A DNA stretch of 64,000 nucleotides from Chrysoporthe austroafricana (taxonomy: Eukaryota; Ascomycota; Sordariomycetes; Diaporthales; Cryphonectriaceae). The notes under the pieces are model-generated. The model saw only the letters and a program-made list of their open reading frames with translations, did not search any database and had not been told where the DNA came from. The DNA lies in the NCBI GenBank assembly GCA_001051155.2, contig JYIP02000002.1, positions 5,499,315 to 5,563,314 on the forward strand, written 5' to 3'. Within the stretch, counting starts at the first letter, position 1; each line of letters starts with the position of its first letter. Below are positions 5,195-62,109 of the stretch, piece by piece. The position numbers were made by a program, and so were the translations under genes.

Positions 5195-5818
5195 CTAGTT
5201 AAAAGAATAATTGAAAAAACCCGGTATAATCTCGTACTCGGAAGCCAAATTAATAGCAAACCAGTCGATATCAGAACCAAATTGCTATAAAGCAGCTTCC
5301 AGATTAAAACTTTCGGGAAGCGGATTTTTAGGAATTAGGGTTTCGGAAATACGATATTCGACTTCGGCCTTATAGCATTCCTCCTCAGCTTCTTCCGTTT
5401 CTAACCTTTCCAATTCCGCAATATTATTAATTTCCCGGCAAACGGCCTGTATTATCTTATTATATTATTTACGTTTCAATTTTCGTTAACGAAAGATATA
5501 AGCATTCAATATCGTCGCTTTCTCTTCTATAGCCTTAAATTCGGTTTCGAGCTATCGATATTTAATAATAATACGATCCAGCTAAGCAGGGGAAAGGCCC
5601 CGAACGTTATAATTTGTAAGGCTTAAGCGAATGCAAGATAAGTAACGGGAAAATTTAGAATCCAGCAAGCGATATTCCTTTCCCAGCTCGCAAAACTCGC
5701 AATAAGAATAAAGCATAAGCACGATAGACTTAAATAATGCTATAATACGAAAAAGAGAAGCTTTCTGCTCGGCTTTTAAGAATTTCGTTATACGAAAACC
5801 GGTAACTTTGCTATATAT
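5195..5818 (-). pseudogene. Element A antisense ORF: Cys-cluster / coiled-coil protein, degenerate
   Basis: This frame lies on the strand opposite gag-pol, between the chromodomain and the 3' LTR. From a presumed mutated start (ATA for ATG) at 5818 it runs 207 codons in one frame to TAG at 5195, with only substitutions breaking it. The Cys region reads CEFCELGKEY then RLLDSKFSRYLSC. With Tyr standing for Cys (TGC to TAC), the spacing is C-x2-C-x5-C-x9-C-x2-C-x7-C. A charged stretch rich in Glu, Lys and Leu follows, and then a conserved tail (GSDIDWFAINLA). The same ORF recurs in elements C, D, F, G, I, J and K. A DNA-binding or RNA-binding role is inference only. Confidence 0.7.
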
Positions 5819-7278: not shown

Positions 7279-7884
7279 ATGCCGAATAGAGTTTCCAAGC
7301 TTAAATTTTCTAATTTTCGTCTTAATAAGAACAAATAGCGTAAATCCTTAATCTTTCGGATTATTTATTGCGCTATTATTATGCGCCTTTATTTTTATTA
7401 TAATTGCTTGGGTTTAGAAATTTGCGCGGTTTCTAAATAGGATTTGTCCCGTTATTTCCGATACGTTTAGCATAATTAATCGAGCTGTAACGTCTTAAAG
7501 CCGATTAATGCTACGAAGCTTTCTTTCGTATTTAATTAGTTTCAGAAACTGGAAAACGAGATTAAGAGTCTGGAAAATAAGCTAATAAGGCTGCGGAAAC
7601 AGAAGCGGATATAGCAAGAACGGATAGCTCGAACCTTCCGTTATAGTTTATTTAATCTTAAGGATTTGGAACGGTTGGAAAAAGAAAAGGCTGCGGAAAA
7701 ATACCGTAAGGCTACGGTTGAATATTGCGCTATAAAGACTTTAGTTCCCGAAAGTCCTCTTTCCGAAAGTTTTGATCTGAATGCTATTTTGCAGCAATTC
7801 GGTTCCGATATCGACTAGTCTGCTATCAACTTATTCGCAAGGCACGAAATTATATTAAGTTTTTCTAATTATTTTTCCGATTAG
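7279..7884 (+). pseudogene. Element C antisense ORF, start codon preserved
   Basis: This copy keeps an ATG (MPNRVSKLKF). It then stays in one frame for 201 codons to TAG at 7882, with only TAG/TAA stops inside. Order: basic N-terminus; Cys region (YYNCLGLEICAVSK, then SRYFRYVQHNQSSCN, where Tyr probably replaces Cys); heptad-like charged stretch (LENEIKSLENKLIRLRKQKR); acidic segment with LERLEKEKAAEKYRKA; C-terminal tail ESPLSESFDLNAILQQFGSD. The polypurine tract and LTR are just upstream. The LTR has CCCTAACCC and TTACGTAAGC on this strand, which could promote it. The product is not known to me beyond similarity to uncharacterised fungal Cys-rich proteins. Confidence 0.7.
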
Positions 7885-10800: not shown

Positions 10801-13390
10801 TTCCAGTAATTTTAAGTATTTATCGTTTATTAGCTCAAATTTTTCTTTATAATTTCTCTATATTCGTTATTTTGGAAGCGGTATCTCTTTATAATTCTAT
10901 AATCTATATAGCCTTATAACGTTTTGCGTTAAATTAACTTTTTATTAATTGCTAATTGCTTAAATTTCTAATCTGTCTTTAACTTATATTTATAAGTTTG
11001 AAATATCCGTAACCTTTCTTTATTTTCTAGCAAGTCTATCCGTTTTAAAAGTATATTTAAGCTTATTTGAGCGCATATTACCGATATTATTCTCAGTAAT
11101 TAAGATTTTCCTTTTTCCGTTAATTGCAACCTTTTCAGTAAGTACGGCTTATTTTTATAAAACTTAGCCAGTAGTCCAATCGATTCAAGAATTATACTTC
11201 TTAAGCTAAAATATTCTTAAGATTAATTTATATTATATTATATTTATAATATCGAAAGTAGTTTTTATTATAAGGCTTTAAATCGAAATAAATAAATAAT
11301 TAATTTCTATATCGATTATACCAAAATTATATATAATTGCTTTCCCTTTTATAGTATTAAATTTATAAGTATTTTCTTTTTATATTTAAAGTATTCGTTT
11401 TCTATTAATAATTTCTAACGAAATGAAATTTCTTTATACGCTGCTATCCAAAAATGCGCTATATTATTACCCGTTAATATATATATTCAATATAATATGC
11501 TTTTTATTTTCTTTTATAATCGCGCATAGGGATTTCGTAATCCTAATTGGCTATTATTCCGTTATAAGCAATCTTTCTCTTTTGAGATATTCTAAGCTTT
11601 TTTTGCTGCTTGCTTTACTAACTTTCGCGCTTAGCTTTAGCCATATTGCTTTGCCTTTTCAGCCTTCTGTAATCGATGCTATTCTTTAGCCTTATCTTGC
11701 ATATAGATAGAATATGCTATAATATAGCATTATTCCTATATCGTTTTTCTTTAAATGCATTTTTACGGATAATTATCGGGTAATCCAATATAAGCATTGT
11801 TATTCTCAATATGCAAGATTTTTCTGTATTTTTTTCGGGATTCCATAATAGATTAGATTAACTAATCCATTCTCTAATTGGAAACTAATTATATTTGATT
11901 TTCTCGTTAAAATATATCTGGCAGTTATAATAAATATAGTATATCCAGGCAAGTTTATAATAACGAAAGTATAAGTAACTAATCTTTTTATTTTCTTGAA
12001 ATTTGCATTCGTTATTCTGGAACGGAATGCTTTAAAAGAGTTCTTATAATATAAGTTCGTAAACGAAATGCTTAACTTTCATATGCTTGGATATCCAGTT
12101 ATCTTGCTTTAATTATTTCTGTTTTAAATGCTAAATAACTATCTTTTCTGTTTTCGTATTGAGTTTTTTTTCGAATATAAAGATTAGTAAATTATCTGGC
12201 TGCCTATCTTATAATATAATTTCTTCGAATATAACGCTTGGTATAAGTATTTCCGCCCGTTATATGCTAATTTCCTCCTTTACTATTGCTTTTCATTATC
12301 GTTCAAAATAATAATTTAAGGGAAACCTTCTTAAATCTACTTCTTTAATATTTAAGAGATTGCTTAAATAATCCGAATTACTATTATTTATAGCTATATT
12401 GTAAATAAAGCCTTTCCTTCTTATAGCGAATTGCTTTTATCTTTTAAGCTTATATAAAAACTATCTTAAACTTTCTTTTGCTAAGAAATGCAATAAGCAA
12501 TAATTCTAATAGCAGGCTATTTAATTTATATTGCTATAGTTAAAGTCCGCTGCTTATTTCAATAGAATATTATTATTTAATTAATTAAATTCTTATCGTT
12601 ACGTAATATTAGCTTATTTTTCTATAATTAATTTCCAATTTCGTTTTTTCTTTTCTTAATAATAATTGCATACGATATAGCCTTTCTTACCGCAATTGTA
12701 ATAAGTAATTCCCTTGCGCTATTCTTATATTAGAATATTCAATTTTATAAATTTAATATATATCGTATTTAAATAAGCTATATTATTTCGATTTTTCTAT
12801 TAAAACTTATATTTTCTCGAATTAAATTAACATTTCGGGATATTATTATAGTTCTTCTGCTATTATTAATACCGTTCGTAAAGCTAATTATCGATACGAA
12901 TTGCTTTATTAATAAACTCGCTAAGTTTTTCGAATCGGTTTTTCTTATAAAGCTTATCTTTAATTTCTTCTTTAAGTCCTATATAATAAGTATTTATAAA
13001 GGGTTCGTTTTCGTAATTTAAATAAGCGATAATCTGCTTGAATTTAGCCGTATAATTCGCAGCCGAGCTAATTTATCGGAATGCTTCCAATTGCCGTATT
13101 ACAATGCATTTTTTATTTGAGTTTCCAAAAGTTTTAATAAAGGCTAATTCAAAATTAGCATAATGCTAAAAAATGCGCTTAATATTTTCAGAACAGAAAT
13201 CCTTACTATTATCCAAATAATCGCGAAAGGTTAATTCTCATTACTAGAAAGCAATCTTTTCGAAATAACTTCTCGCGAAATCAATTTTGTCGTAAATAGT
13301 CCTGAATTGGGCGCTATAATATTTGAAATAAGCTTTAAGTTAAGTTAAAAAAGCTTGGAAGTTTCTCTGAATGCCTTTATAAGGCCCAAG
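7890..13390 (-). pseudogene. Element C gag-pol remnant
   Basis: Read on the minus strand from right to left: gag with a CCHC-knuckle trace at about 12,650-12,715; protease region; reverse transcriptase with YFNN in place of Y-x-D-D near 10,027-10,065; RNase H at about 9300-9600; integrase core at 8673-8888 (DSILIMVCKLSKYAYFF, then EIISDRDRKF, open for 71 codons); and chromodomain at about 7955-8090. All the rest is broken by RIP-type stops. The gag start is separated from this part by element D. Confidence 0.8.
13386..13390. repeat. Target site duplication of element D, left (CCAAG)
   Basis: The partner is CTAAG at 20,724-20,728. They differ by one C-to-T change in a CpA context, so the duplication appears to have been altered by RIP after insertion. 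Confidence 0.65.
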
Positions 13391-13813
13391 TATTGTAAAT
13401 GCTGCAGTAATCCTAAGATATACTATAAGGTTAAAAGGTTTATACTAAGTATAAGCCTTGAATACTGAAATACGATTTACTAAGTATCGCAATATTTACA
13501 AATCTTAAGTAATTATTAATAATAAAGGTTCAATTAATACTTAGATTGACAATTGAAAAGCTATTACTATCTATTTAGTAAATATCTGGTCCTTATATAT
13601 CTAGCTCTTCAATCCTGGACCGATAGAATCGGTATCGAATATATCGGTCTATAGTTATATCGATAGGACCGATAGCGGTCCTATTAGTCCCTTTCCTTAA
13701 CCTTAACTTATATAAGCATATAGTTGGATTTGTAACCAACCCTGCATTTCCTAATACTCAATAAGTCGTAACTTTAATATTACATTCTGATTCTGCATAT
13801 TAATTCATAATAT
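13391..13813 (-). repeat. Element D 3' LTR (423 bp)
   Basis: It starts TATTGTAAATGCTGCAG and ends TTCATAATA. A 14-bp deletion relative to the partner LTR lies after TTTATACTA near 13,443. It contains CCTTATATATC, a GATCGGTATCGA-rich segment unlike other families, CCTTAACCTTAA and TTATATAAGC. The polypurine tract follows on the minus strand. Confidence 0.88.
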
Positions 13814-13901
13814 TATCTCCTGTCTTATTGATTGATATCTTTATTAACTTCTATAAGCTTTCCCGGTTCTTCTTATCATTTATCGTACCTTCCTGATTAG
13901 G

Positions 13902-14516
13902 ATATCGGGCAGGGTTGAAAAGTCTTATTATAAGAAAACTATCCAGAGCAACGCCTTTTGCATCTCGGTTTTTTCTTATTATTCGGAAATGCCTGCTTGT
14001 TCTTTTTGTATGGACCGTAACCTTTTTTGTACTGCTTCTAAAGAGGATTCTTCCCGGTATGCGGAATGCATTCGCAATAAACGGGGGAATTGCGATATAG
14101 CCGGGCTTTCCCCGATACAAATGCAGAAGATCGCAAGGTAACATTCCCAAGTTGAAACGGAATTGGAAGCGGCCGAAAGGGAAGCGATACTAGCAAATGC
14201 CAAGGTTTTGCGCTTTCGAAAACAGCATCGTTTGTAGGCTAAGAAGATAGCGCGCGCGGTTTATTGCGGGCTGGATACTATCGAAGAGTTAGAAAAGTTA
14301 GAAGCCGAAAAGGCCGAGGAGGAATATCGTAAGGCCGAGGCCGAGCGTTATGCTATAGAGCCTTTCGTTCTTAAGGGTTTTTTCCCGGAAAGTTTTGATT
14401 TTAAAGCTGCTTTGCAATAGTTTGGTTCCGAAATTAATTAGTCCGTTACTATTTCGGAAATTAAGCCCGAAAATGCGGCTAGTCTTTCTAATATTAATAT
14501 TTTTCTAGTTAACTAA
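13902..14516 (+). pseudogene. Element D antisense ORF: best preserved Cys-cluster copy
   Basis: This frame has 204 codons from a mutated start (ATA at 13,902) to TAA at 14,514, with four internal TAA/TAG stops and no frameshift. An internal ATG at 13,989 begins MPACSFCMDRNLFCTASK, followed by EDSSRYAECIRNKRGNCD. If Tyr is restored to Cys, the pattern is C-x2-C-x6-C-x9-C-x2-C-x7-C. That lies within the range known for Zn(II)2Cys6 clusters. It is followed by heptad-like VETELEAAEREAILANAKVL and the acidic EELEKLEAEKAEEEYRKAEA. The region is visibly richer in GC than the rest of the element. It is encoded opposite to gag-pol, just inside the 3' LTR. Confidence 0.75.
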
Positions 14517-14539: not shown

Positions 14540-17500
14540 GTTATTTTCGTATTGGGTATTAACTAGTAGCTGCTTTTTCTTAATAGATTTGGAAGGCTTA
14601 TTTCGCATTAGCTAGGTTTTTAGTCGGTTCTTAGCTATTTTCGTTCGAATAATATCCTTTCCATTTAATCAGATATTCTTTATAATTTATTAATTCTCAA
14701 TACTTAAAGATTCGTTCTATTTCGTATTCTAGTTCGTTACTTTCTGCTTATGCTATATTATTTGTTTCGGCTATTTTAAATATAGGTTTAAGAAACGAAA
14801 TATGAAAAACCGGATAGATTTTCATTCCGTAAAGTAATGCAAGTTCAAAGTTAATATCTGAGATTTTCCTTAGAACTTTGAATAATCCGAATTTCTTGTA
14901 ATTTAGCAAATAAGAAGGTCTGGTTATTTTAATATATTCTTTTTATCGAACGAAATAAACTTTATCTTTTTCTTGCAGAATTAATCCTTCAATTCTTTTA
15001 GAATTGGCATACCGGGTTATTCTTTCTTATACAAATTTTAATTCTTCTTGCAATTCTTTTTGTACTTTCTTAATTTTCTTAATTCGTTTTTCTATTGCTT
15101 TTGCATTTGCTTTTAATAATTTGTTATAATAAGCTATCGGATTATAGCCGTATAGTATATAGAATAATAATTTCTTTATCGTATTTATATTTGCGCTATT
15201 ATATGCAAATTATATTAAAAGTAATAAATTAACCCAATTATTCTATTCGTAATTTATATAATGCTATAAATATTATTTAATAATCTGGTTTATTCGTTCT
15301 ATTTATCTGTCCGTTTATAAGTAGAATGCTATAAATATCTTTTATTGCGTTCCGAATAATTTTATAAGCGATATTTAAAAGTTTGATACGAATTTCCTAT
15401 TTCTATCGGAAATGATTTTTTTAAGCATGCTATAATTAGCTATAACCGTTCTCAAGAATATATATGCAAAATCTTCTGCTATGCTGCTTTCCTTATACGG
15501 AAAGAAATAAGCATATTTATTTAATCTATAAATTATTACTAGGATGCTATCGTATTATACTTTAATTAAAGGTTTTCGTAAAAGAAATAATTTAGTAATA
15601 AAATCCTAGCTAATAGATTGCCAAACCGCTTTAAGGATAAGAAGAGGTTAAAATAGTCTATAAGGCTTATAATATTCGATCTTGTTTTTCTTGTAGCTAT
15701 CGTATTCTTATAGAATTTTCTTAATCCTTTTCTTTAATCTTAAAAAGTTTTAATATCTCTTGATTCTTTCATATATAGCTCTAATTTCCTAATAGCCGTA
15801 TGCAAATGCGCTATATATGTTTTTAATATATTCGTCTTATTCTTTCGTTATTATATCTTCTAGTTTCCTTTTATTACTAAATATCTTAATAACTATATCG
15901 AATTCCCTAGCTTTATTTATAAGGTTGCTATTTTTATTTTGCTAGAAGATATTTTGTAATTCTTTTGGCTTTATATTTTAGTAGTCTAATCGCTTGCTAA
16001 ATGTATTTGCTTTGCCGTTTTCCGATCTTTTGCAATAAACAATTTTTAAGTCGAATTATAAAAGGAATTCCGCTTATTTAACTTATCGTTTATTCAAGAT
16101 TTTCATTATTATAAATATTATTAGATTTTTATAGTCTGAATGCATTATAATTTAATATTTTATTCCAATTAAGTAATGCTGCTATTTTTCGAATGCTTTT
16201 ATAATTGCTATTAGTTCCTTGTCTGGAATGCCGTAATTAAGTTCCGGACCGTTCAGTTTTTTCGAGAAATTGCCTACGATTTTGAAGCGTTCCTAGTCGT
16301 CTCGTTAGCCGAGCTATTTTCCTAGCGTATAATCTGATATATCGGTTTCGATTTCGAATAGTTTGTTCGGGTTGGTTTCGCAAAATATAAATTCTGATAT
16401 TACTCGCTTTTTGATTTTATCGAATGCTTCTTGCGTTTCTTATATCTATTCGAATTTTTAATCTTTTTTTATAAGATTTGTAAAAAGGCTTGCGATTTTG
16501 CTATAATCTCGAATAAATTATTAGTAAAAGTTAGCATAGCCGAGAAATGCTTTAACCTCTTTTATCTTTTCTAGTATAAGCTATTCCTTTACTACTTGGA
16601 TTTTATCTTTCTGTATGCTAATCTTGCTTAGTTCTATCGTATAGCCAAAGTAATTGATTTTTTATTAATAGAAATAGTATTTATTTGGTTTTATTAAAAG
16701 CTTATTATCCTATAGCGTTTGGAATACTTGCTATATATGCCTTTTATAGGATTTAAAGTCTTTAGAATAAATAAGGATATTATTAAAATAAACAATAATA
16801 ATAGTATCCAAATATTCGCGAAAGATATCGTTAATTATTTTTTGGAAAAATGCGAGCGCGTTAGTTAATCCAAAAGGTAAGATTATATACTCGAAATGCT
16901 TATAGCGAATCCTGAATGCCGTTTTCCAGATATTATTTTCCTTAATTCAAATATAATAATATCCTTTTTTGAAATCGAACGTAATAAACTAGTTTGCTCC
17001 TATCAGCCAGTCTTGTATTTCTCTTATTAGCGGTAGAAAATAGCAGTTTTTAATCGTAATATTATTAAGCTATTTATAATTTACGCAAAGTCGTAATTTG
17101 CCGTTTTTCTTGAATACGAATAAGATCGGATATCCCGCTAATAACCGTAATTTTCGTATATAGCCTCTTTTCAGATTTTCGTTAATATATTCTTTGAATA
17201 TTTCAAATTTCGCTTGATCGAATTTATAAATAGAGTAGTTTTTAAGTTTTATCCTTTCTTTTAATAGAATTTCGTAATCAAAAAGGCCGTATTCTGGTAA
17301 CCCGGTATCAAATTTCCTTTGCTATAGTTTCTTGAATTCGTAATATTCTTTTAATATGTTCTTAAGTTCTGGTAATAGTCCTTTTTCGTCTTCTAAGATT
17401 TGAAAGAACAAAAAATATTGTTAAGCGTATTTTGCCTCGCTTGCTTTCTTTTTCTATCTATATATACTGGTTTCTAATAGCCTTAAGTGCTTATTATTTG

Positions 17501-20270: not shown

Positions 20271-20286
20271 ACAAAAATTATCAAAA

Positions 20287-20723
20287 TATTATAAATGCTG
20301 CAATAATTCTGGGATATACTGTAAGGTTAAGAGGTTTATACTAGCAAGAGCGGTATTAAGTATAAGCCTTAAATACTGAAATACGATTTACTGAATATCG
20401 CAATATTTATAAGTTTTGAATAACTATCAATAATAGGGGTCTAATTGATATTTAGATTAATAACTGAAGAGCTATTACTATCTATCTAGTAGATATCTAA
20501 TTCTTATATATCTGGCTTTTCAATCTTGGACCGGTAGGATCGGTATCGAACGTATCGGTTTATAGTTATATCGATAGGACCGATAGCGGTCCTGTCAGTC
20601 CTTTTCCCTAACCCTGGCTTATATAAGCACGTGGTTAGATCCGTAGCCAACCCTGCATTTCCTAATACTTAGTAAGTCGTAACTTTGGTACTATATTCTA
20701 ATTCTGCATATTAGTTTATAATA
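20287..20723 (-). repeat. Element D 5' LTR (437 bp)
   Basis: It begins TATTATAAATGCTGCA and ends TTTATAATA. It contains the sense TATA segment (CTTATATATC on the plus strand near 20,500) and CCCTAACCCTGGCTTATATAAGC near 20,610-20,632. Its inner edge (minus-strand leader) starts TTTTGATAATTTTTG, not TGG. Confidence 0.88.
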
Positions 20724-20973
20724 CTAAGCTTATTAAGCTTGAAAGCTTTAACCTCTTAGAAAGCGTTAAAGCGGAAAACTTTATTTTTGATTTCTTTAAG
20801 CTATTAATATAGGGCTAAGTTTTATTATTAAAGCTGCTTGTTAATAAGGATAATTAAAGCTTTTTCCTGAAAAACTTAAATGCTAAACGAAAACGGGATT
20901 TAAAGCGCTACCGTATTTCTAGTATTGCATAAAGGGTATATATTAAACCGTTTTTAAATAAAAATTATAAAAA
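20724..20973 (-). pseudogene. Element C leader and gag start, cut off by element D
   Basis: This contains the CTAAG duplication (20,724-20,728), then gag 5' sequence that continues the frame interrupted at 13,390, then the leader next to the 5' LTR. On the minus strand the leader reads TTTTTATAATTTTTATTTAA. Confidence 0.75.
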
Positions 20974-23059: not shown

Positions 23060-23064
23060 CAAAG
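23060..23064. repeat. Target site duplication of element F, left (CAAAG)
   Basis: An exact match to CAAAG at 30,402-30,406. It defines the element ends at 23,065 and 30,401. Confidence 0.9.
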
Positions 23065-23546
23065 TGTAATGAGCACCCGAGTAGCGCAAGTACCTGGTAC
23101 GTCAGAGGTTTATGCTAGGCAAGGGTAGTATGCAGTACAATCTACTTATATACGGAAATACAGTTCTGAAGTGTTCTGGAGTTTGCTAGGAGTTCACTAT
23201 CCGTATTGGATACTTCTCTCCTTAGAGAAATACTTAGATTGACGACTGAAGAGCAACTATGAAATCTATTTAACGGTAAGGAATATTCAGTCTTATATAT
23301 CCGGCTTTTCAATACGGGATTATCTGCTTATCTAGTAAGCTGGTAAGCTTGGCTTACTGGCTTACTGGGTAATCTTATGATCTTTATCCTTATTTATCTT
23401 TAACCCTCGGTTAGGTAGTCCCGGATAGTCGGGTATCTTTATATAATTAGTCTTCTTGCGGCGGATATTGGATCCGTATTACGTTATTCCTGGATCTACT
23501 GATCCGGCTTATTCCTATAACCTGAATTATTCGTTAGTTCATAATA
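23065..23546 (-). repeat. Element F 3' LTR (482 bp)
   Basis: It starts TGTAATGAGCACCCGAGTAG and ends TTCATAATA. It contains TTGACGACTGAAGAGC, the TATA segment CTTATATATCCGGCTTTTCA, alternating AAGCTTGGCTTACTGG repeats, TTTAACCCTCGGTTAGG and CTTTATATAATTAG. The minus-strand polypurine tract CAAGAAAGGAGATAA adjoins at 23,547-23,561. Confidence 0.9.
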
Positions 23547-23639: not shown

Positions 23640-24227
23640 ATATCGAATAGGGTTAAAAAGTTTCGTTCGCTCAAAACTGTTCGTCGCGATTCTCTCTTAG
23701 AGGCGATTCTTTAGCATGCTGTTCAGATGCCTTCCTGTTCGTTTTGTAAGGGTTGCAGTATTTCGGTCTGCTAGGTTTCCGAACGGGATTCTTCTCGCTA
23801 TTCGGAATGCGTACGGCTTAATCGTTCTTGTTGCGATATGCTAAATATGTCTTCCGGCGAATTGCGCAAGATAACTTCTTATTACAAGAAGCTAAAAGAT
23901 AAGCTAGAGGTAGCGGAAGAAAAGGTCTTCCGCTTTTATCGTTAAAAGCGTATATAGTACGAGAAGATAATGCGGGCCGTTTGCCGGGGAATCGATAGTA
24001 TGGAAGAGTTGGAAAAGCTGGAAGCCGAAAAGGCCGAGGAGGAGCGTCGTAAGGCTAAGGTCGAGTGCTATGCTATAGAGCTTTCTATTCCCGAGGGTTC
24101 TTTCCTAGAATCGTTCTTATAAAAGGTAAAGGAGATTGATTGGGCTATTATAGATTTTGGGTTATTTATTATTAAAGGGTCTAAAAGTATAATTAGGCCT
24201 ATTGATCGTCCTGTAAATAGCTTTTAG
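23640..24227 (+). pseudogene. Element F antisense ORF (195 codons, degenerate)
   Basis: The frame runs from a mutated start (ATA at 23,640) to TAG at 24,225 with no frameshift. Order: basic N-terminus; CSFCKGCSISVC; SERDSSRYSECVRLNRSCCD; SSGELRKITSYYKKLKDKLE (heptad-like); MEELEKLEAEKAEEERRKAK; and a tail VKEIDWAIIDFGLFI. The protein is close to that of element K. Most damage is TAG/TAA. It lies on the strand opposite gag-pol, 94 bp inside the LTR. Confidence 0.75.
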
Positions 24228-29880: not shown

Positions 29881-29919
29881 AATAATACTGAACCAGCTCT
29901 TGAACAAGAATCGTTAAAA

Positions 29920-30401
29920 TATAATAAATACCCGAATAGCGCAAATACCTAGTATGTCAGAAGTTTATGCTAAGCAAAGGTGGTATGCAATACAATCTAC
30001 TTGTATACGGAAATACAGTTCTGAAATGTTCTGGAATTTGCTAGGAATTTACTATCCGTATTGGATACTTCTCTCCTTAGAGAAATACTTAGATTGACGA
30101 CTAAAAAGCAATTATAAAATCTATCTGACAGTAGGGAATATTCAGTCTTATGTATCCGGCTTTTCAGTACGGGATTATCTGTTCATCTAGTAAGCTAGTA
30201 AGCTTGGCTTACTGGCTTACTGGGTAATCTTATGATCCTTATCCTTATCTATCCCTAACTTTCGGTTGGGTAGTCCCGGATGGTCGGGTGTCCTTATATA
30301 ATTGGTCTTCTTGCGGCGGATATTGGATCCGTGCCACGTTGTTCCTGGATCCACTGATCCGGCCTGTTCCTGTAACCTGAACTGTTCGTTGGTTTATAAT
30401 A
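29920..30401 (-). repeat. Element F 5' LTR (482 bp)
   Basis: It starts TATAATAAATACCCGAATAG and ends GTTTATAATA. It differs from the left LTR mostly by C/T and G/A changes. The motif TTGACGACT (30,094-30,102) is the complement-pairing partner of the leader at 29,909-29,917. Confidence 0.9.
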
Positions 30402-44565: not shown

Positions 44566-45168
44566 ATATCGAATAAAATACAGAAAACTCGCTTTTCTTA
44601 TTCAATTAAAACCTAGCATTACGACTCTCTCTTGGAAGCAGTCTTGCAGTATACTATGCAAATGCTTTTTTATTTATTCTGCAAGGGGCATAGCATTTTC
44701 AATTGCTAAATCTCGGAAAGCAATTCTTTACGTTATTCAGAATACATACGGCTTAATTATTCCCGGTATAATATCCTAAGGGTTACCTTTAATAAGCTGC
44801 GCAAAATAGCTTATTAGTATTAGAAATTGGAAAATAAGCTAAAAGCTGCGGAAAAGAAAGTTTTTCGCTTGTATTATTAAAAATGCATATAGTATAAGAA
44901 GATAATACGGGCTATTTATTACGGTATTAATAATATAGAAAATTTGGAATAATTAGAAGCGGAAAAGGCTAAGGAAGAATATTAAAAAGCTGGGATTAAG
45001 CGTTATGCTGCAAAAACTTTAGTTTTTAAAAGCTTTTTTCTTAAGAATTTTAACTTAAATGCTGCTTTATAGCAATTTAGTTTTAAGATTAACTGGTTTA
45101 TTATTGATTTATCCGTAAAGCTTAATATTAAGATTAATTGATCCGGTCCCGATTATATTTCTAGCTAA
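44566..45168 (+). pseudogene. Element G antisense ORF, heavily degenerate
   Basis: From a mutated start (ATA at 44,566) the frame runs 200 codons to TAA at 45,166 without a frameshift. There are about ten internal stops, all TAA/TAG but one TGA. Homology with the better copies remains: SSLRYSEYIRLN-like, LENKLKAAEKKVFRLY, LEAEKAKEEY and NLNAAL. Most Cys codons are now Tyr. Confidence 0.6.
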
Positions 45169-46694: not shown

Positions 46695-47292
46695 ATAATT
46701 GATAGGGTTATTAGTTTTCGAGTATCGAAACTTTTTAAAGCTAAGCAGAAAGCTTTCTTTTTCCGTATTATAACATTATTTGGGTTAATCGTGCTTATGC
46801 CTTATTCTTATTGCGAGTCTTATAAGCTAGGGAAAAAGTATTATTTGCTGGATTCTAGGTTTTCCCGTTATTCGTTCTGTATTCGCTTGGGTCTTGCGAA
46901 TTGCGATATTCAGGATTTTTCCCCTGCCCAGCTAGACCGTATTACCGTTAAGTACTAGCAATTCGAGGCCAAGCTTAAAGCTATAGAAGAAGAGGCGGTA
47001 GCGCTAAATGCTCGTATTTTTTATTAACGAAAATTGAAATGCGAATAGTATAATAAAATAATACGGGCTATTTGCTAAAGAATCGATAATATTAAGGAAT
47101 TGGAAAGGTTAGAGGCGGAAGAGATTAAAGAAGAGCGTTGCAAGGCTAAGGCCGAGCATTATGCTTCGGAACCTTTAATTCCCGAAAGTCCTTTTCCTGA
47201 AAGCTTCAATCTGAATACTGCTTTGCAGCAGTTTAGTTCTGATATTAATTAGTCCGTTATTAATTTATCTATAGGGCATAAAGTCGTGCTAG
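46695..47292 (+). pseudogene. Element I antisense ORF, split by element J
   Basis: The start (ATA at 46,695) begins an almost clean frame: SKLFKAKQKAFFFRIITL, YSYCESYKLGKKYYLLDSRF, SRYSFCIRLGLANCD, then AEEIKEERCKAKAEHYASEP. With Tyr for Cys the pattern is C-x2-C-x5-C-x9-C-x2-C-x7-C. After removal of element J and one copy of GCTAG, the codon at the break is completed at 62,110-62,111. The frame then reads FSNYLSG and stops with TAG at 62,133-62,135, 207 codons in all. This supports both the ORF and the nesting. Confidence 0.72.
47288..47292. repeat. Target site duplication of element J, left (GCTAG)
   Basis: An exact match to GCTAG at 62,105-62,109. Confidence 0.9.
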
Positions 47293-47726
47293 TGTTATAA
47301 ACGCTGCAGTAATCTTAGGATAAACTGTAAAGTCGAGGGTTTATACTAGCAAAAACGGTACCAAGTATTGCTTTAAGTCTTAGAACAAAATTGCTAAGTA
47401 TTGCAAAGTTTATAAGCCTTGAGTAGCTATTAATGGTAAGGTCCGATTAATACTTAAATTGACAATTGAAAAGCTATAGTAACCTATCTTGACAAATGCC
47501 CTGTCCTTATATATCCAGCTTTTCAGTACTGGGTTTGCTGGATCTATAATAGATCCCCAGATCCTAAATCTAATAGCTCTGGTACAGATCCTCAGATCCT
47601 ATTATATAACCCTAATTCTGGCTTATATAAGCGATAGGAAGGGTATTATAAGTAAAGCTATAGACGAAATGCCTATCTGTCCCTATTCTTCCCCTTATAT
47701 GCCTTATCTCTTACTGGGTTATAATA
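47293..47726 (-). repeat. Element J 3' LTR (434 bp)
   Basis: It starts TGTTATAAACGCTGCAG and ends GTTATAATA. The inverted repeat TGAAAAGCT (47,467-47,475) and AGCTTTTCA (47,517-47,525) encloses the TATA segment CCTTATATATCC. GGCTTATATAAGCG is at 47,612-47,625. Confidence 0.9.
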
Positions 47727-47816
47727 TTATTCCCTTTCCAATCGATTATTGTCTTTAATAATTCTTATAAGTAATCCCGGTTCGTTCGTATAGCTTATCG
47801 TGCTTTCCTAAATAGA

Positions 47817-48422
47817 ATAAGTAATAGAATTTCAAAACCGAAATCTATTAATCTTTATTCTGATAAACGCAAATAATGTAATTCTTTAATTTTTCGGATT
47901 ATTTATTACGCTATTATTATGCGTCTTTATTCCTATTATAACTGTTTAGGGTTGGAAACTTGCGCGGTATCCAAGCAGGATTTATCCCGTTATTTCAAGT
48001 ATATTTAGTATAATCAGGCGAGCTGCGATATTTTGGAACCGACTAATGCCGCAAAACTTTCATTTGCGTTTAACTAGTTTTAGAAACTGGAAGATAAAAT
48101 CGAAAGTTTAGAAGACAAGTTAATACGGCTGCGGAAATAGAAACGGATATAGCGGGAGCGAATAGCCAGGGCGTTCTGTTATAGCTTGTCCAATCTCGAA
48201 GAGCTAGAGAAACTGGAAGCCGAAAAGGCGGAAAAGGAACGTTGCAAGGCCGAAACTGAATATCGTATTCCAGAGACCTTAATTCCTAAAGGTCCTTTTC
48301 CTGAGATTTTTAACTTGAATACGATTCTGTAATAATTTGGTCTTAATATCGACTAGTTTGCTATTAATCTGATTATAAGGCATAAAGCCGTATCGGGTCT
48401 TTTTGGTTATTTTTCTAGCTAG
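47817..48422 (+). pseudogene. Element J antisense ORF
   Basis: The frame is 201 codons from a mutated start (ATA at 47,817) to TAG at 48,420, with no frameshift; all internal stops are TAA/TAG. It reads YYNCLGLETCAVSKQDLSRY, NQASCDILEP, LEDKIESLEDKLIRLRK, LEELEKLEAEKAEKERCKAE. It is nearest to the element C copy. Confidence 0.72.
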
Positions 48423-48424
48423 CT

Positions 48425-48620
48425 AGTTAATTGCTTTTTCCAGTAATTTCTGAATGCTTATTATATATTATTAAAATTGCTAATTGGTTCCTAGCTATTT
48501 TCGTTCGAATAATATCCTTTCCATTTGATTAAATATTCTTTATATTTGATTGGTTTTCGATAATAAAAGATTCGTTCGATTTCCTATTTTAGTTTATTAG
48601 TTTCGATTTATATAGATTTG
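48425..48620 (-). pseudogene. Element J chromodomain, cut by element K
   Basis: Minus-strand chromodomain remnant (about 48,490-48,610). The sequence breaks at ATTTG (48,616-48,620) and resumes after the second ATTTG at 56,158 with the continuation TCTGTTTTGGCTAT. It matches the uninterrupted copies at 45,340 and 62,310. Confidence 0.8.
48616..48620. repeat. Target site duplication of element K, left (ATTTG)
   Basis: An exact match to ATTTG at 56,153-56,157. Confidence 0.92.
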
Positions 48621-49096
48621 TATTATAAACCAACAAACAGTTCAGGTCACAAGAACAGGCCGGATCAGTAAATCCAGGGCCAGTATGGCACGGATCCAAT
48701 ATCCGATACAAAAAAACCACTTATATAAGAATACTTGACCATCCTGGATTATATAATCAAGGGTTAGAGATAGATAAGGATAAGGATTATAGGATTACCC
48801 AGTAAGCCAATAAGCCAGGCTTACCAGCTTACCAGATAATCAGATAATCCCGTACTGAAAAGCCGGATACATAAGACTGAATATTCCCTACCGTCAGATA
48901 GATTTCATAATTGCTCTTCAGTCGTCAATCTAAGTATCAATCGGACCTTACCATTGATAATCGCTCAAAACTTATGAACATTGCAATACTCGGTAAACGT
49001 ATCTCAATATCCAAGGCGTATACTTGGTACCGCTCTTATTAGCATAAATCCTTTGACCTTACGGCATATCTCAGGATTGCTGCAGCGTTTATAATA
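48621..49096 (+). repeat. Element K 5' LTR (476 bp)
   Basis: It starts TATTATAAACCAACAAACAG and ends GCGTTTATAATA. The sense TATA region GGATACATAAGACTG is near 48,862. The motif AGTCGTCAA (48,920-48,928) lies about 50 bp downstream. CACTTATATAAGAATAC and AATCAAGGGTTAG are upstream. Confidence 0.93.
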
Positions 49097-49098
49097 TT

Positions 49099-49107
49099 TT
49101 GACGACT
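49099..49107 (+). other. Candidate self-primer binding site (TTGACGACT)
   Basis: It lies 2 nt after the 5' LTR end. It is the exact reverse complement of AGTCGTCAA at 48,920-48,928 in the LTR, about 50 bp downstream of the TATA element. No TGG-starting tRNA primer site is present at the LTR edge. The arrangement resembles Tf1, which primes from the 5' end of its own RNA. This is an inference. Confidence 0.5.
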
Positions 49108-49128
49108 TTTATTCAAGAACGGTTCAAT

Positions 49129-50200
49129 ATATACCCTTTGGGCAATACCAGAAATACAATAGCGCTTCAGATTCCGTCTTCTTCCAGCAACCAGGCCCTT
49201 CCGGAAAAGGCTTTAACTATTCTTACTAACGAGCAGCTTCAGTAATAGAATATGGCCTTTTACTAGCAGCTTAAGGAAGTCAAGAATAAGATTATTCGCC
49301 TTAACGCTTTTCAGCAAGCAAAGGCTTTTAAGCTTGACAAATTAAGGCCCTATAAAGGCATTCGGGAGGACTTTTAGGCCTTTTTAACGCAATTCAAGGC
49401 CTATTTCAAGCATTACGGGACCCAGTTCAGAACCGCTTATAACAAGATCGATTTCGCGGGAAGCCGCTTTGAAAGGATAGCCTTTCAGTAATAGGAGCTT
49501 ACTTTTCGCAATTACCTGGATAACGATAATACATTTCGTTCCGAAAATACCAAACGCATCTTCTAGCATTATTCTAATTTCGAAAAAGCCCTTATCAAGA
49601 TTTTTAGGAATCCGGACGAACGATATATTACAATATAGCAACTAGAAATATTATGACAAACCGGCTTGGTTGCAGACTATACGGCCAAATTCCGGCAGAT
49701 CGTTACTTATCTCGATTATGAAAATAAACCCTTTATGGACGCTTACTATGCGGGATTCAAAGAAGAAATCAAGGACAAACTTTATAAAGAAAACCGACCC
49801 GAAAAATTTAGCGAATTCATTAATAAAGCGGTCCGTATCGATAATCGACTTTACGAACGGCGCTAATAATAATAGAAAAACTATAGCTATACCCCGAAAT
49901 ATTAGCCCAATTCCGGAAAGCGCAAGTTTTAATAGAAAAATCGAAATAATACAGCCTATTCGGGCATTATGCATCCTAGACTTATAGAACTAAACGCCCT
50001 TATACGAGAATAATGCAAGGGAATTACTTATTATAATTGCGACAAGAAAGGATATATCGCTTGCAACTATTATTAGGAAAAGAAGAAACGAGAATAGAAG
50101 CTAATCCCGGAAAGATAGATTAGCGTCGCTTAGTAATAAGAGCCCAATCAGCTAAACAATAATATCTAATAAGAGCAAATAATAAACCCTGGTTATAGCA
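49129..50200 (+). pseudogene. Element K gag remnant
   Basis: A presumed start (ATA at 49,129) opens a frame that is broken by stops but stays in register. Segments: EKALTILTNEQLQ, QLKEVKNKIIRLNAFQQAKA, KLDKLRPYKGIREDF, FRNYLDNDNTFRSENTKRIF. The open part 49,666-49,866 reads VADYTAKFRQIVTYLDYENK, as in the retrotransposon gag domain. A knuckle at about 50,012-50,068 reads YYNCDKKGYIACNYY (C-x4-H-type site with the His lost). It would form the virus-like particle coat in an active element. Confidence 0.82.
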
Positions 50201-53200
50201 ATACGAGCTGGATAGCCTGCTACCAAAATCATTACTTATTGCACCTTTCAGAAAAAGAAAGCTTAGGATAATTCCTATGCAAACTTAAAAGATAATAGCA
50301 ATTCGCTATAAGAAGAAAAGGCTTACTTTATAATACGGCTATAAACGATAGCAATTCGGACTGCTCGAATAACCTGCTAGATATTACGGAAGAAAATCTA
50401 GGAAGATTCCCTTTAGAAATATACTTCGACTAACGATAAGAAAGGGCAATAGAAGAAGAATTTAGCATATAAGCGCCGATACTTAGCGCTATACTTAGCG
50501 AAACGATATTGCAAGATAAATAGCCAGACAACCTGCCAACCCAAATATTCGAAAAAAAACCTATCGGAAAAATAAGAAAGCCGGTTACTGAATACCCCAA
50601 ATAGGATTACCTTAAAAACCGTAACTGAATAACCAAGCATATGAAAGTAGAATACCTCGTATACGGGCTTACTTTAAAAAAACTTCTCCAAAGCATTCCG
50701 TTCCAAAATAGCAAATACAAACCCCAGGAAAATAGAAAGATCAGTCATTTATACTTTTATTACTATAAACTTGCTTGAATATATTATATATACTATAATT
50801 GCCAGATATATTTTAGCGAGAAAGTCAAATACAATTGGTTCCCAATCAGAGAATAGAACCAATTAATCTAACCTATTATAGAATCCCAAAAGAAATACAG
50901 GAAAGTCTTGCATATCGAATACAGCAATGCCTATATTGAATTACTTAACGATCGCCTATGGAAATGCGTTTAAGAAAGAATAATATAGGAATAATGCTAT
51001 ATATCGGCATATTCTATCTATATGCAAGATAAGGTTAAAGAATAATATCGATTGCAAAGAGCCGAGAAGGCAAAGCAATACGCCCAAAGCCAAGTAAGAA
51101 GATTGGCAAAGCAAGCAGCGAAACAAGTACAAAATAACCTAAAAAGAAAAGATCGCTTGTAAAGGAATAGCAGCCGATCAGGACTATAAGGTCCTTATAT
51201 GCCATTACGAAAAATAACGAAGGATATATTATTTTGGATATATATATTAACGGGTAACGTTACAGCGCACTATTAAACAGTAACGTATAAGGAAATTTTA
51301 TCTTGCCGGAAATCGTTAATAGGAAACGAATTCTCTAAATGCAAAAGAAAAATCCCTATAGATTCAATACTATAAAAGAAAAAGCAGTAATATATAACCT
51401 TGGAATAATCGATAAAGAAACTAATTACTTACTTATCTCGATCCAAAGCCTTATAACGAAAACCATTTTCAATATTACAAATACAGTATAGTATAAGTTA
51501 ATCTTAAGAATATTTTGGCTTAAAGAATACAATCCTTATATCGATTGGATTACTAGCCAGATTTCATAAGAATAAGCTATACCTACTGAAAAGGTCGCAA
51601 TTAACGGAATAGAGAAAGACTTAATTACTAAGAATAGCATTAGGAATATACGCTTAAACAGGCTTAGATATACCCTTAAAGCAGAAATACTTGCCAAACG
51701 ATAAGGAAGGGTTATAAGTATTTCGAACTTACGAATACAGATTAAAGACAGACCAAGAATTCAAGCGACTAGCGATTAGCAAAAGGCTAATCTGGTATAA
51801 AGCATTACGAAATTATATGGACTATAGAATTATAAAGAGATTCAGCTTTCAGTATAACAGATATAAGAAGATTATAAAAGAAAATTCGGCCTTATAAATA
51901 ACAGATACTCAAAACTACTAGAAACCAAGATATATAGACAAAGAAAAAAAGCGATAAAAGAAAAATACGCTTAACAATACCTTTTGTTTTTCCAAATTGC
52001 AGAAAACGAAAAAGGACCGCTACCAGAATTCAAGAACGTATTACGAAAATACTATAAGTTCAAGAAACTATAGCAAAGAAAATTTGATACTGGCTTACTA
52101 GAATACGGCCTTTACGATTACGAGATTCTACTGAAAGAAAGAATTTAGCCAAAGTTCTACTCTATTTACGGACTTGATAAAGCAAAATTCAAAGCATTCA
52201 GGGAATATATTAACGAAAACTTGAAAAGAAGCTATATACAATTATTGCGATTACTTGCGAAATACCCAATCCTATTTATATTCAAAAAGAATAGCAAATT
52301 ACAATTTTGTATAGATTACCGATAACTTAACGATATTACAATCAAAAACCGGTATTTACTGCTATTAATAAATAAAATGAAAGACTAACTAATAGGAGCA
52401 AAATAGTTTATTACGCTTAACTTTAAGGAAGAATATTATTATATCCGGATCAAAAAAAGCAATATCTGGAAAACGGCTTTCAGAATACGTTACGGATATT
52501 TCGAATACGTAATTATGCCTTTTAGGCTTACGAATGCGCCTGTATTTTTCCAAGAAATAGTCAATTACATCTTCCGCAAGTTCCTAAATATTACTATTAT
52601 CGTCTATCTTAATAATATCCTTATCTTTTCCAAGAATTTCGAATTATACAAATAATACGTATGCGAAATATTCTAAATATTATAAGATAATAAACTCCTA
52701 ATCGAATTAAGCAAATACTGCTTTTACTAGCAAAAAGTTAATTATTTCGGCTATATTATCGAGCCAGAGCAAATTAGCATACAAGAAAATAAAGTTAAAG
52801 CAATACGGGAATAGCTTATGCTAGAAAATATCAAGGATATCAAAGCATTCTTAGGATATGCTAATTTCTACCGACAATTCATTCAGGACTATAGCAAGAT
52901 CGCATACTCTCTTACAGATTTTATAAAAAAAGACCGAAAATTCAAATGGACCCCAGAAATATAAAAGGCATTCGATAAAATCAAAAAACGAATCATATCA
53001 GAACCGATTCTCTATAAAGCAAACCTAGAGAAACCTTTTGAAATTAAAACCGATACGTTAAATTACGCATTCGGTAAACAATTAGGCTAACGAGATAACC
53101 AAAGATATTTCAGGATTGTAAGCAATTTCTCAAAAAAGTTAAACGGCCCCGAACTCAATTATAGCATTCCAAATAAGGAATTAATAGCAATTGTTAAAGC

Positions 53201-54820
53201 ATTCGAAAAATAGCAACGATACTTAATCGGAACCAAATACCAAATCATAATATATTCGGATTACAAAAACTTAATAATATTTATAATTACGAAAGTCTTG
53301 AACAAGCGATAAATCAGATAAGCAGAGTTCCTCTTATAATTCGATCTGAAAATTGTCCATTATAAGGGATCCGAAAATGGCAAAGCAGACGCATTTAGCA
53401 AATAATTAGACTGTTAAAATACGGACCCCAAAGAATTTCAGAATATCTTTCAGCAAGATAAAGACGGCAACTTTATAAACGAAGCTAAAGAACTCGATAT
53501 AATTATCAAAATCAGTAATAACGAAAAGGAACTAGAAAATATAACCTTTAAAGAATAGGATAAATATATAAGAATAATATATAACGTACTAGCATATAGC
53601 TATTAAGGAATCAGAGCTACGTACGAAAGAATTAAGAAATACTGGAACTTCCCAGGGTTAAAGAAAAGAATTGAAAGAATCCTACGAGAATGTAATAGCT
53701 ATAAGAAGAACAAGATCGAATATTATAAGCCCTATAGACTATTCCAACTATTCCTTATCCTAAAAGCAGTTTGGCAATCCATTAGCTAGGACTTTATTAC
53801 TAAGCTACTTCTCTTACGAAAACCTTTAATTAAAGTACAATACAATAGCATTCTAATAATAGTTTGTAAATTAAGCAAGTATACTTACTTCTTTCTATAT
53901 AAAGAAAATAATATAGTAAAAGATCTCGCATATATATTCTTAAGAATAGTTATAGCTAATTATAGTATGCTTAAGGAAATCATTTCCGATAGAAATAAGA
54001 AGTTCGCGTTAAACTTTTGGATTTTATTTACGAAACTACTTGGAATACGACAAAAAATATCTATAGCATTTCACTTACAAACGGACGGATAAATAAAACG
54101 AACAAACCAAATCGTTAAATAATATTTACAATATTATATAAATTACGAACAAAATAATTAAATTAATTTGCTACTTTTAGCATAATTCGCTTATAATAGC
54201 GCAAATACAAATATAACAAAAAAGTTATTATTCTATATATTATATAGCTATAACCCGATAGCTTATTATAACGAATTACTAGGAATAAATGCGAAAATAG
54301 CAGAAAAACGAATTAAGAAAATCAAAAAAATGCAAAAAGAATTGCAAAAAGAATTAAGATTTATACAAGAAAGAATAACCCGATATGCCAATTCCAAAAG
54401 AATTAAGGAATTAATTCTACAAGAAGGAAATAAAGTCTATTTCGTTCGACAAAAAGAATATATCAAAATAACCAAACCATTTCATTCGCTAGATTACAAA
54501 AAACTCGGACCATTCAAGATTCTGAAAAAAATCTCAAATATTAATTTCGAACTTATACTACCTTACGGAATAAGAATTTACCCGGTCTTCCACATTTCGC
54601 TTTTTAAACCTATATTCAAGATAGCCGGAATAGATAATATAGCATAAGCAGAAAGTAACGAACCAGAATACGAAATGGAACGAATCTTTAAATATCGAGG
54701 ATTAATAAACTATAAAGAATACTTAATTAAGTGGAAAAGCTATTACTCGAATGAAAATAATTGGGAACTAACCGAAAACTTAGCTAATGCAAAGCAAGCA
54801 TTCCAAGGCTACTGGAAAAT
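50200..54820 (+). pseudogene. Element K pol remnant with chromodomain
   Basis: Order: protease region (about 50,700-51,600); reverse transcriptase (about 52,150-52,950) with YLNN in place of Y-x-D-D near 52,604; RNase H (about 53,030-53,420, FEIKTDTLNYAFG); integrase core (about 53,760-54,130), where ISDRNKKF carries the second Asp and the catalytic Glu before RTNQ reads Lys; integrase C-terminus (54,330-54,647 open, LDYKKLGPFKILKKISNINF, VFHISLFKP); chromodomain 54,667-54,820 (EMERIFKYRGLINYKEYLIK, WKSYYSNENNWE). Changed catalytic residues fit G-to-A RIP. It is inactive. Confidence 0.85.
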
Positions 54821-54971
54821 AGCTACCAGGATATAAAGTTTTTCCTAATAAAACGGACTAACCAGTCAAATAGCCAGTCCAGGAAATTCGCTACAATACT
54901 AATACGAGCAAATCTGTACTAGTAAAAAGAAATCCGCTATTAGAAACGACTAATCAGAAAAGACTTACAAA

Positions 54972-55583
54972 TTAACCGGAAAGATAGTTAATACCAGAAG
55001 AACTACTTATAGGACAATCAATAAGCTTAATCATATCCTCAGACCTCCTAATAACGAATAACCCAAAATCTATAATAGCCCAATCAATCTCTTCTACCTC
55101 TTGCAAGAACGATTCCGGGAAAGGACTTTCGGGAATAGAAAGCTCTATAGCGCGACGCTCGATTTCAGCCTTGCAACGCTCTTCTTCGGCCTCCTTAGCT
55201 TCCAGCTTTTCCAACTCTTCTATACTATCGATTCCTTGACAAATAGCCCGCATTATCTTCTCGTACTATATACGCTTTTAATAACGAAAACGGAAAACCT
55301 TTTCTTCCGCTACTTCTAGCTTATCTTCCAACTTTTTGTAATAAGAAGCCATCTTGCGCAATTTGCCGGAAGATATACCCAGCATATTATAACGAGAACG
55401 ATTAAGCCGTACGTATTCCGAATAGCGAGAAGAATCCCGTTCGGAAACCTAGCAAACCGAAATACCGCAGCCTTTACAAAACGAATAGGAAGGCATCTGA
55501 ATAGCGTACTGAAAAATCGCCTCTAAGAGAGAATCGCGATAAACGGTTTTGGGCGAACGAGATTTTTTGACTCTACCCGATAT
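54972..55583 (-). pseudogene. Element K antisense ORF
   Basis: From a mutated start (ATA at 55,583) the frame runs 203 codons to the stop at 54,972, with three TAG/TAA interruptions and no frameshift. The last 93 codons are fully open from ATG at 55,253. It reads MPSYSFCKGCGISVC, SERDSSRYSEYVRLNRS, ASYYKKLEDKLEVAEEKVFR, IEELEKLEAKEAEEERCKAE and ESPFPESFLQEVEEIDWAII. It is convergent with gag-pol, about 150 bp from the chromodomain end and 94 bp from the 3' LTR. It is close to the element F version. Confidence 0.75.
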
Positions 55584-55661
55584 AACGAATTAAGAAGGCA
55601 CGATCCGAAATAAGAATATCAAGCAAGACTACTTACGGAAAATCTTTAAGGATAAAGATTA

Positions 55662-55676
55662 CAAAGAAAGAGATAA
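55662..55676 (+). other. Element K polypurine tract
   Basis: ACAAAGAAAGAGATAA directly precedes the 3' LTR. The same A/G-rich block, AAGAAAGGNGATAA in consensus, lies at the inner edge of the 3' LTR in elements C, D, F, G, I and J. It is the expected plus-strand primer site. Confidence 0.8.
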
Positions 55677-56152
55677 TATTATAAATTAACGAATAATTCA
55701 AGTTATAGGAACAAGCCGGATTAGTAAATCTAGGGCTAGCATAGTACGGATCCAATATCCGATACAAAAGAACTACTTATATAAGGATACTTGACTATCC
55801 TAAATTATATAATCAAGGGTTAGGAATAGATAAGGATAAGGATTATAGGATTACCCAATAAACCAATAAGCCAAGCTTACTAGCTTATTAGATAATCAGA
55901 TAATCCTGTACTGAAAAGCCGGATATATAAGACTGAATATTCCTTACTATCAGATAGATTTTATAGTTGCTTTTCAGTTATCAATCTAAATATCAATCGG
56001 ACTTTATTATTGATAGTTGCCTAAGATTTATAAATATTGCGATATTCGGTAAACGTATTTCAATATCCAAGGCGTATATTTGGCATTGCTCTTATTAGCA
56101 TAAATCCTTTGACCTTACGGCATATTTCAGGATTGCTATAGCGTTTATAACA
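55677..56152 (+). repeat. Element K 3' LTR (476 bp)
   Basis: It starts TATTATAAATTAACGAATAA and ends GCGTTTATAACA. GGATATATAAGACTG is the sense TATA region. On the opposite strand, CCTAACCCTTGATTATATAA faces the antisense ORF. Confidence 0.93.
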
Positions 56153-56157
56153 ATTTG

Positions 56158-61670: not shown

Positions 61671-62104
61671 TGTTATAAACGCTGCAATAATCTTAAAATA
61701 AACTGTAAAATCGAAGGTTTATACTAGCAAGAACGGTATTAAGTATTGCTTTAAGTTTTAAAACAAAATTGCTAAGTATTGCAAGGTTTATAAGCTTTGA
61801 ATAGCTATTAATAATAGGGTCCGATTAATACTTAAATTAATAATTGAAAAGCTATAATAACCTATTTTAACAGATACTCTATCCTTATATATCCAGCTTT
61901 TCAGTACTGGGTCTATTGGATTTATAATAGATTCCTAAATCCTGGATCTGGTAGCTCTAACGCAAATTTTCAGATCCTATTATATAACCCTAACCCTGGC
62001 TTATATGAGCGATAGGAAGGGTATTATAAATAAGGTTATAGACGGAATGCCTATCTGTCCCTATTTTTCCCTTTATATGCTTTGTCTCTTATTGAGTTAT
62101 AATA
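61671..62104 (-). repeat. Element J 5' LTR (434 bp)
   Basis: It starts TGTTATAAACGCTGCAATAA and ends GTTATAATA. It keeps CCCTAACCCTGGCTTATATG near 61,986-62,010. It is followed by GCTAG (62,105-62,109). Confidence 0.92.
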
Positions 62105-62109
62105 GCTAG

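Follow-up and report, generated by a model that had tools for sequence, protein, structure and literature searches.

The stretch of DNA considered here (the window) spans 64,000 nucleotides of contig JYIP02000002.1 of the ascomycete Chrysoporthe austroafricana (assembly GCA_001051155.2, forward-strand positions 5,499,315 to 5,563,314). It harbors long terminal repeat (LTR) retrotransposons, designated by letters, which carry an additional gene, antisense to gag-pol, for a predicted Zn(II)2Cys6 protein. In element D, this gene is found at 13902..14516 (+) as a broken copy with four internal stops and no frameshift. The 3′ LTR of this element, whose sense strand is the minus strand, occupies 13388..13815 (+), and therefore the gene starts about 86 bases inside it; the 5′ LTR, 82% identical to its 3′ counterpart, is located at 20284..20726 (+). 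On the opposite strand lie the pol 3′ end with approximate limits 14543..14725 (-), which looks chromodomain-like by a motif recognised by eye, and the integrase C-terminal SH3_Tf2-1 domain at 14784..14966 (-).

An earlier note on this DNA, made from the sequence alone, had reported such frames in eight elements, and all of them were recovered at the places it gave. Apart from D, these are the copies in A (5195..5818, -), C (7279..7884, +), F (23640..24227, +; element LTRs at 23061-23546 and 29916-30401), G (44566..45168, +), I (46695..47292, +; interrupted where element J has inserted), J (47817..48422, +; LTRs at 47291-47726 and 61671-62104), and K (54972..55583, -; LTRs at 48621-49101 and about 55677-56157). 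All eight frames translate into about 195-207 codons antisense to gag-pol and just inside the 3′ LTR, the gene start being some 50-90 bases inside it in most copies; seven of them were placed in one alignment, with G left out. An LTR is situated upstream of all eight copies, and the opposite-strand pol 3′ end directly downstream of seven. For copy I, the pol-end match found is 1,149 bases off and belongs to J, since J interrupts I. The LTR matches reveal nested insertions at 46,695-62,135, with K lying within J and J interrupting the antisense gene of I; the second piece that the earlier note assigned to copy I (62,110-62,135) would fit the insertion of J.

Coding constraint on the antisense frame

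Repeat-induced point mutation (RIP) converts C to T in CpA on either strand and turns Gln and Trp codons into TAA or TAG, TGA not being its usual product. The internal stops across the eight window copies comprise 31 TAG, 16 TAA, and 1 TGA; hence, 47 of 48 are TAA or TAG, a predominance pointed out in the earlier note, which is what RIP makes of Gln and Trp codons. In seven of the eight copies, frame 0 contains fewer stops than either of the other two frames (1 and 2), the exception being copy G (11 stops in frame 0 vs. 9 and 24 in the others). The copy length is divisible by three in seven cases, copy I being cut at 47,292 by J. A single frame was traceable by tblastn through each window copy, with A, D, J, and K themselves among the queries and C, F, G, and I not among them, so the claimed lack of frameshifts stands within the window. 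The claimed contrast with a ‘badly broken’ gag-pol turned out to be weaker: in the four elements compared (D, K, F, and L040), the 3′ end of pol likewise contains stops, yet its frame continues with no shift.

The analysis of selection was based on the window and 98 fetched loci from the top of the match lists, a choice favoring better-preserved copies; matches of at least 480 bases were kept and repeats of the same place dropped, which left 94 copies. Transversions were used because RIP makes transitions only, and they were counted in 47 disjoint nearest pairs, with pairs below 2% transversions skipped. Their numbers at codon positions 1:2:3 amounted to 479:297:942, position 3 ranking first in 46 of the 47 pairs and tied in the remaining one. 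At third positions sharing the same first two bases, transversions were recorded in 273 of 1,926 four-fold sites (14.2%) vs. 119 of 3,281 two-fold sites (3.6%), a 3.9-fold contrast by which replacement changes pass at about one quarter of the silent rate. LTR-side DNA, serving as a negative control, displayed no periodicity in 19 disjoint pairs (200:217:209, p 0.71). At the same time, TGA was encountered 3 times per 17,729 codons in the antisense frame vs. 37, 50, 67, 137, and 413 times in the other five frames.

Several observations fit this picture less well. With all stop types pooled, the antisense frame is level with the opposite frame ‘-’,0 (472 vs. 476), so it is the stop type and the substitution pattern that separate the frames. 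A mild four-fold/two-fold contrast is also present in two opposite frames (10.1% vs. 7.1% in ‘-’,1 and 2.6% vs. 1.7% in ‘-’,0) and absent in the remaining three; the third-position excess recurs in frame ‘-’,1, which has its wobble base in common with the antisense frame. Outside the window, the gene matches of four diverged relatives (L104, L105, L106, and L108) are split over two frames, so the lack of frameshifts does not extend to all copies of the genome; decay, an old indel common to them, or an intron may be responsible. Retrieval of the copies by similarity favors preserved frames as well, but it cannot produce the difference between TGA and TAA/TAG.

The equally few stops of frame ‘-’,0 and the third-position excess of frame ‘-’,1 would suit a frame kept open by chance or by constraint on the sense strand, but this explanation was rejected by the TGA and transversion tests, both singling out the antisense frame, and its probability is negligible, given also that pol and the gene are arranged tail to tail, pol stopping before the gene or at its end in four of four elements (D, K, F, and L040), and that the protein is kept in unbroken relatives. 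Overall, the gene encodes a protein, on which purifying selection acted during the active period of the families. That it is a real and selected accessory gene, as originally proposed, is practically certain in view of these tests and the flat LTR control.

Occurrence of the gene across elements

The search of the genome (48 Mb, 22 contigs) with an unbroken relative of the gene product returned 389 candidates, and 2 of the 150 scored places were stop-free in the matched stretch. Among 39 copies with long flanks, the opposite-strand pol 3′ end was found downstream of 36, and 35 had an LTR upstream in addition; these figures include the correction of copy I, before which the script counted the pol end in 37/39, the LTR in 38/39, and both in 36/39. 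The best LTR match of these copies was in the native orientation in 35 cases, inverted in 3, and missing in 1. The Pfam domains of L040 follow each other on one strand in the order RVT_1, RT_RNaseH, Integrase_H2C2, and SH3_Tf2-1, after which the antisense gene comes on the other strand. Likely, the host elements are of the chromovirus type of Ty3/Gypsy, with the chromodomain seen as a by-eye motif. A piece beside the L040 chromovirus (L040:7968-8225, +) resembles a Copia-type reverse transcriptase in its motif.

Since the long-flank copies were found via the gene, they cannot tell whether elements lack it. The presence of the gene was therefore scored from the pol side. Of 509 SH3_Tf2-1 candidates, 150 were listed, and the top 10 of these were examined; the gene was detected at nine of them, at one on a weak match. 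Four of the 10 loci were already paired with a gene match, and five more possess a diverged copy whose position and strand are as expected, the best E-values per locus being 3e-13, 1e-7, 2e-7, 2e-5, and 0.002 (L108). Neither the antisense gene nor a related LTR was found at the remaining locus, L103, which may represent another lineage or an old pol-derived gene. This locus (contig C20, about 2.95 Mb) lies in DNA rich in guanine and cytosine (GC content 0.54) and harbors the strongest SH3_Tf2-1 match of the genome among those listed.

A stand-alone unbroken copy of the gene without gag-pol is located at L039:3963-4622 (-) on contig C12 at about 3.39 Mb (the L039/L022 locus), where a frame of 218 codons from ATG is open in DNA of about 50% GC. 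Five pieces of the L040 pol were searched for at L039, and none was found save one spurious 10-residue match. The LTR remnants at this locus comprise an 80-base fragment in the native orientation just upstream of the gene and a larger inverted one; retention of the native 3′ LTR at L039, considered at first, was rejected, the larger piece being inverted relative to the gene and the 80-base piece alone native. The DNA search of the genome with L039 yielded no non-self match over the gene part among the best 40 of 304 candidates. This copy may be a domesticated gene or else an old relic spared from RIP by being single. An open frame with DUF3716 (L039:8259-9224, -) is situated near it.

The predicted protein and its candidate target

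With copy D as the query, one protein of Cryphonectria parasitica was retrieved (53% identity). The alignment search gave 10 relatives, including P0002, and the search with P0016 gave 72, P0016 included. The unbroken relatives of named source come from C. parasitica, Lachnellula arida (annotated as ‘Zn(2)-C6 fungal-type domain’), and Camillea tinctor, so the mention of similar unannotated proteins in ascomycetes, made in the earlier note, was confirmed in part; the others stem from the jgi, ena, lgn, and src collections, probably from metagenomes. Two branches of the family align over almost their full length (hhalign probability 100).

The Zn(II)2Cys6 cluster is defined by the spacing C-x2-C-x6-C-x5..12-C-x2-C-x6..8-C. 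The full spacing was present in 46 of 81 relatives and absent in 35, all six observed spacings falling within this definition, vs. 1 match in 16,200 shuffled sequences by a slightly wider pattern. The cluster of copy D (13998..14093, +) reads C-x2-C-x6-C-x9-Y-x2-C-x7-C and fits with one Cys read as Tyr, in line with the spacing described initially; the K, F, G, J, and C types have x7 and the A and I types x8 in the second gap, deviating from the x6 of the definition. PF00172 (Zn_clus) was the commonest Pfam match (36 of 81 relatives at E ≤ 0.1, the next family having 3). Of six proteins scored with bits, P0016 alone passed the curated cut-off of 21 (22.3 bits), and P0001, P0002, and two open frames of the Chrysoporthe genome gave no PF00172 match.

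In the AlphaFold models of P0010 and P0016 (predicted local distance difference test, pLDDT, 80 and 84, respectively), the Cys region contains two short helices and is followed by long helices of 52 and 47 residues, or of 81, which probably pair as a coiled coil. The region of copy D aligned with the two long helices of P0010, and taken as coiled coil, extends over approximately 14112..14396 (+). Structure searches with the two models listed HAP1, PUT3, and Pho7, all of them Zn2Cys6 factors, among few chains and with weak scores; unrelated chains scored equally or higher. Foldseek placed HAP1 first, but at E 0.59, and returned nothing useful with the first model. The matches of P0002 to TAL repeats among PDB sequences were rejected, no stretch passing alone, as were the WNK kinase and mL40 matches of P0001, every one at E > 0.06; both were taken as an effect of the coiled coil. 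The C-terminal tail corresponds to 14397..14513 (+) in copy D; in those unbroken relatives that were inspected, it is acidic and contains W/F/L. The last 45 residues of ten proteins (nine of the 81 and P0089) bear a net charge of -5 to -8 and 3 to 5 W/F/Y, so this tail may resemble an activation domain. Overall, the product is well supported as a small Zn(II)2Cys6 protein in which the zinc cluster follows a basic N-terminus and precedes long helices, the tail being acidic and aromatic. The suggestion of a DNA-binding regulator has gained support from the spacing in 46 of 81 relatives and the prevalence of PF00172, and a DNA-binding protein of the Zn2Cys6 type is very likely, the binding itself being predicted.

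The LTRs upstream of the gene have in common two TATA-like anchors about 85 bases apart, and the space between these is filled by an array in which short motifs recur on either strand. In the D LTR, the far anchor lies at 13591..13613 and the array of ACCGAT/ATCGGT with five CGG/CCG triplets at 13614..13698 (the strand being undefined for both), and the gene-side anchor at 13699..13717 (+), with TTATATAAGC at 13708. Fuzzy matching located the two anchors together in 25 of 38 flanks and recovered the left anchor in 34 of the 38. Under a simple scheme, the 34 arrays could be assigned to the classes CCGAT/ATCGG (20, including D and A), GTAAG/CTTAC (4: F, G, L040, and L002), and GATCC/GGATC (4: I, J, L017, and L031), with 6 unclassed, K and C among them. 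CGG or CCG occurs 129 times in 2,890 array bases vs. 181 times in 13,839 flank bases, 47.8 being expected from the array composition, and self-complementarity at z ≥ 3 was displayed by 16 of 34 arrays but by a single one of the 34 control stretches. In another five LTRs, of which four are closely related, CGG was denser than in the flanks (20 in 425 bases vs. 33 in 2,505), and self-complementarity was high again in four of the five by simple base shuffles. Since Zn2Cys6 dimers classically bind paired CGG triplets, the array represents a natural candidate site.

Other features of the arrays speak against such a target. The K, J, and C arrays are devoid of CGG, and in the five further LTRs CGG is not above composition (17.6 expected). 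The array had been noticed in ten LTRs before testing, and the 34 arrays are not fully independent, related families being mutually non-independent in these statistics. Co-variation of the zinc-loop length with the LTR motif class was considered and dropped as not clean: it is broken by L002 (contig C20, about 92 kb), where a D-like antisense protein accompanies an LTR array of another family’s type. L002 is possibly a recombinant element. In addition, many of the LTRs inspected contain a AACCCTAACCC/AACCCTTG stretch reminiscent of telomeric repeats, which separates the array from the gene-side TATA, e.g., at 13,690-13,705 of the window.

Proposed function and relation to known systems

Taken as a whole, the findings are best explained by a Zn2Cys6 regulator which the element itself encodes and which probably controls the LTR of that element, with predicted binding, and we consider this explanation rather probable; for regulation of the own LTR as the specific role of the product, the chances are about even. 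The antisense gene would be expressed from the 3′ LTR, its product would bind the LTR array as a dimer, and the bound dimer would set the transcription of the element and of the antisense gene itself, similarly to the action of GAL4-type factors on a divergent promoter. Activation might be guessed at rather than repression, since the tail favors it. A more elaborate version is tentative and seems somewhat improbable as a whole: the LTR would be a bidirectional GAL1-10-like promoter with a family-specific array of half-sites between outward TATA boxes, bound by the element’s own Zn2Cys6 dimer, so that each family would possess a private circuit of self-recognition, and at least one copy (L039) would have been kept as a host gene.

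An unlikely alternative is a repressor controlling copy number or silencing, which would shut the LTR off or act via an antisense transcript forming double-stranded RNA. According to review passages, other retroelements produce antisense transcripts that may act in silencing, and selection between families would retain a repressor as well; the constraint at the codon level, however, shows that the protein matters and not RNA alone, and an acidic aromatic tail would be unusual for a pure repressor. Still less likely is a targeting or chromatin factor tethering the pre-integration complex to host DNA or chromatin alongside the integrase chromodomain. The chromodomain-like pol end suggests that targeting matters to these elements, and a DNA-binding dimer could add site choice to it, but the gene, being on the antisense strand, needs a transcript of its own, unlike gag-pol, and the array of inverted motifs resides in the element’s own LTR, which counts against such a role.

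If the Zn2Cys6 identity holds true, fungal elements would encode a common fungal type of regulator and could be a source of new host transcription factors, and some short proteins annotated in fungi as ‘Zn2-C6’ or as hypothetical would be products of retroelement genes. The Zn2Cys6 identity and the candidate LTR array make the question of function addressable by a binding and reporter test.

Lachnellula, the source of the family member P0086, belongs to the same order as Botrytis, and on the grounds of this protein brtn of Botrytis cinerea and Sclerotinia is perhaps homologous to the present family. The antisense gene brtn was described in Boty-like elements (Zhao et al. 2011, Virology 417:248, as cited in PMC8365987 and PMC7264820), and it is likewise an extra antisense gene of a fungal Gypsy element located between pol and the 3′ LTR. 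The passages on brtn give no domain or function, and the review passage among them regards the function of such antisense genes as not known. According to further passages, one transcript from Monilinia shows matches to BRTN and to a truncated Pol (PMC5987419), and a Boty-like element of Botrytis with a CHROMO domain carries brtn-106 (PMC4227169). In plants, the antisense open reading frames of Retand, Grande, and RIRE2 occupy the same place and strand; those of Retand encode a TRP28 domain, for which DNA binding has been predicted and a regulatory role suggested (PMC11963269), and differ from the present gene in this domain, in their plant hosts, and in their non-chromovirus lineage.

The available part of a survey of fungal LTR elements (PMC3248453) mentions neither antisense genes nor zinc. 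In the literature covered, mostly without subscription papers, no work joining Zn2Cys6 to the antisense gene of an LTR retrotransposon was found, and neither was a selection test or an LTR target for such a gene.

HBZ of human T-cell leukemia virus type 1 (HTLV-1) is a dimeric DNA-binding regulator encoded by an antisense gene expressed from the 3′ LTR of an animal retrovirus. It shares with the present gene the antisense position at the 3′ LTR, but it is a bZIP protein with a spliced transcript, and the parallel is an analogy only; a review also mentions that HTLV has an antisense promoter within its 3′ LTR. The fungal Zn(II)2Cys6 factors of the HAP1, PUT3, and GAL4 type share with the predicted product the C-x2-C-x6-C-x8..11-C-x2-C-x6..7-C cluster followed by a long helix, as well as CGG-type motifs near TATA-like boxes. 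The present protein differs from them in being about 200 residues long and encoded by a mobile element, with an x7 or x8 second gap in some subfamilies. Overall, antisense genes of this kind were already known, and what is added here is the Zn2Cys6 identity, the selection test robust to RIP, the presence of the gene at nine of ten pol-side loci, and the LTR array.
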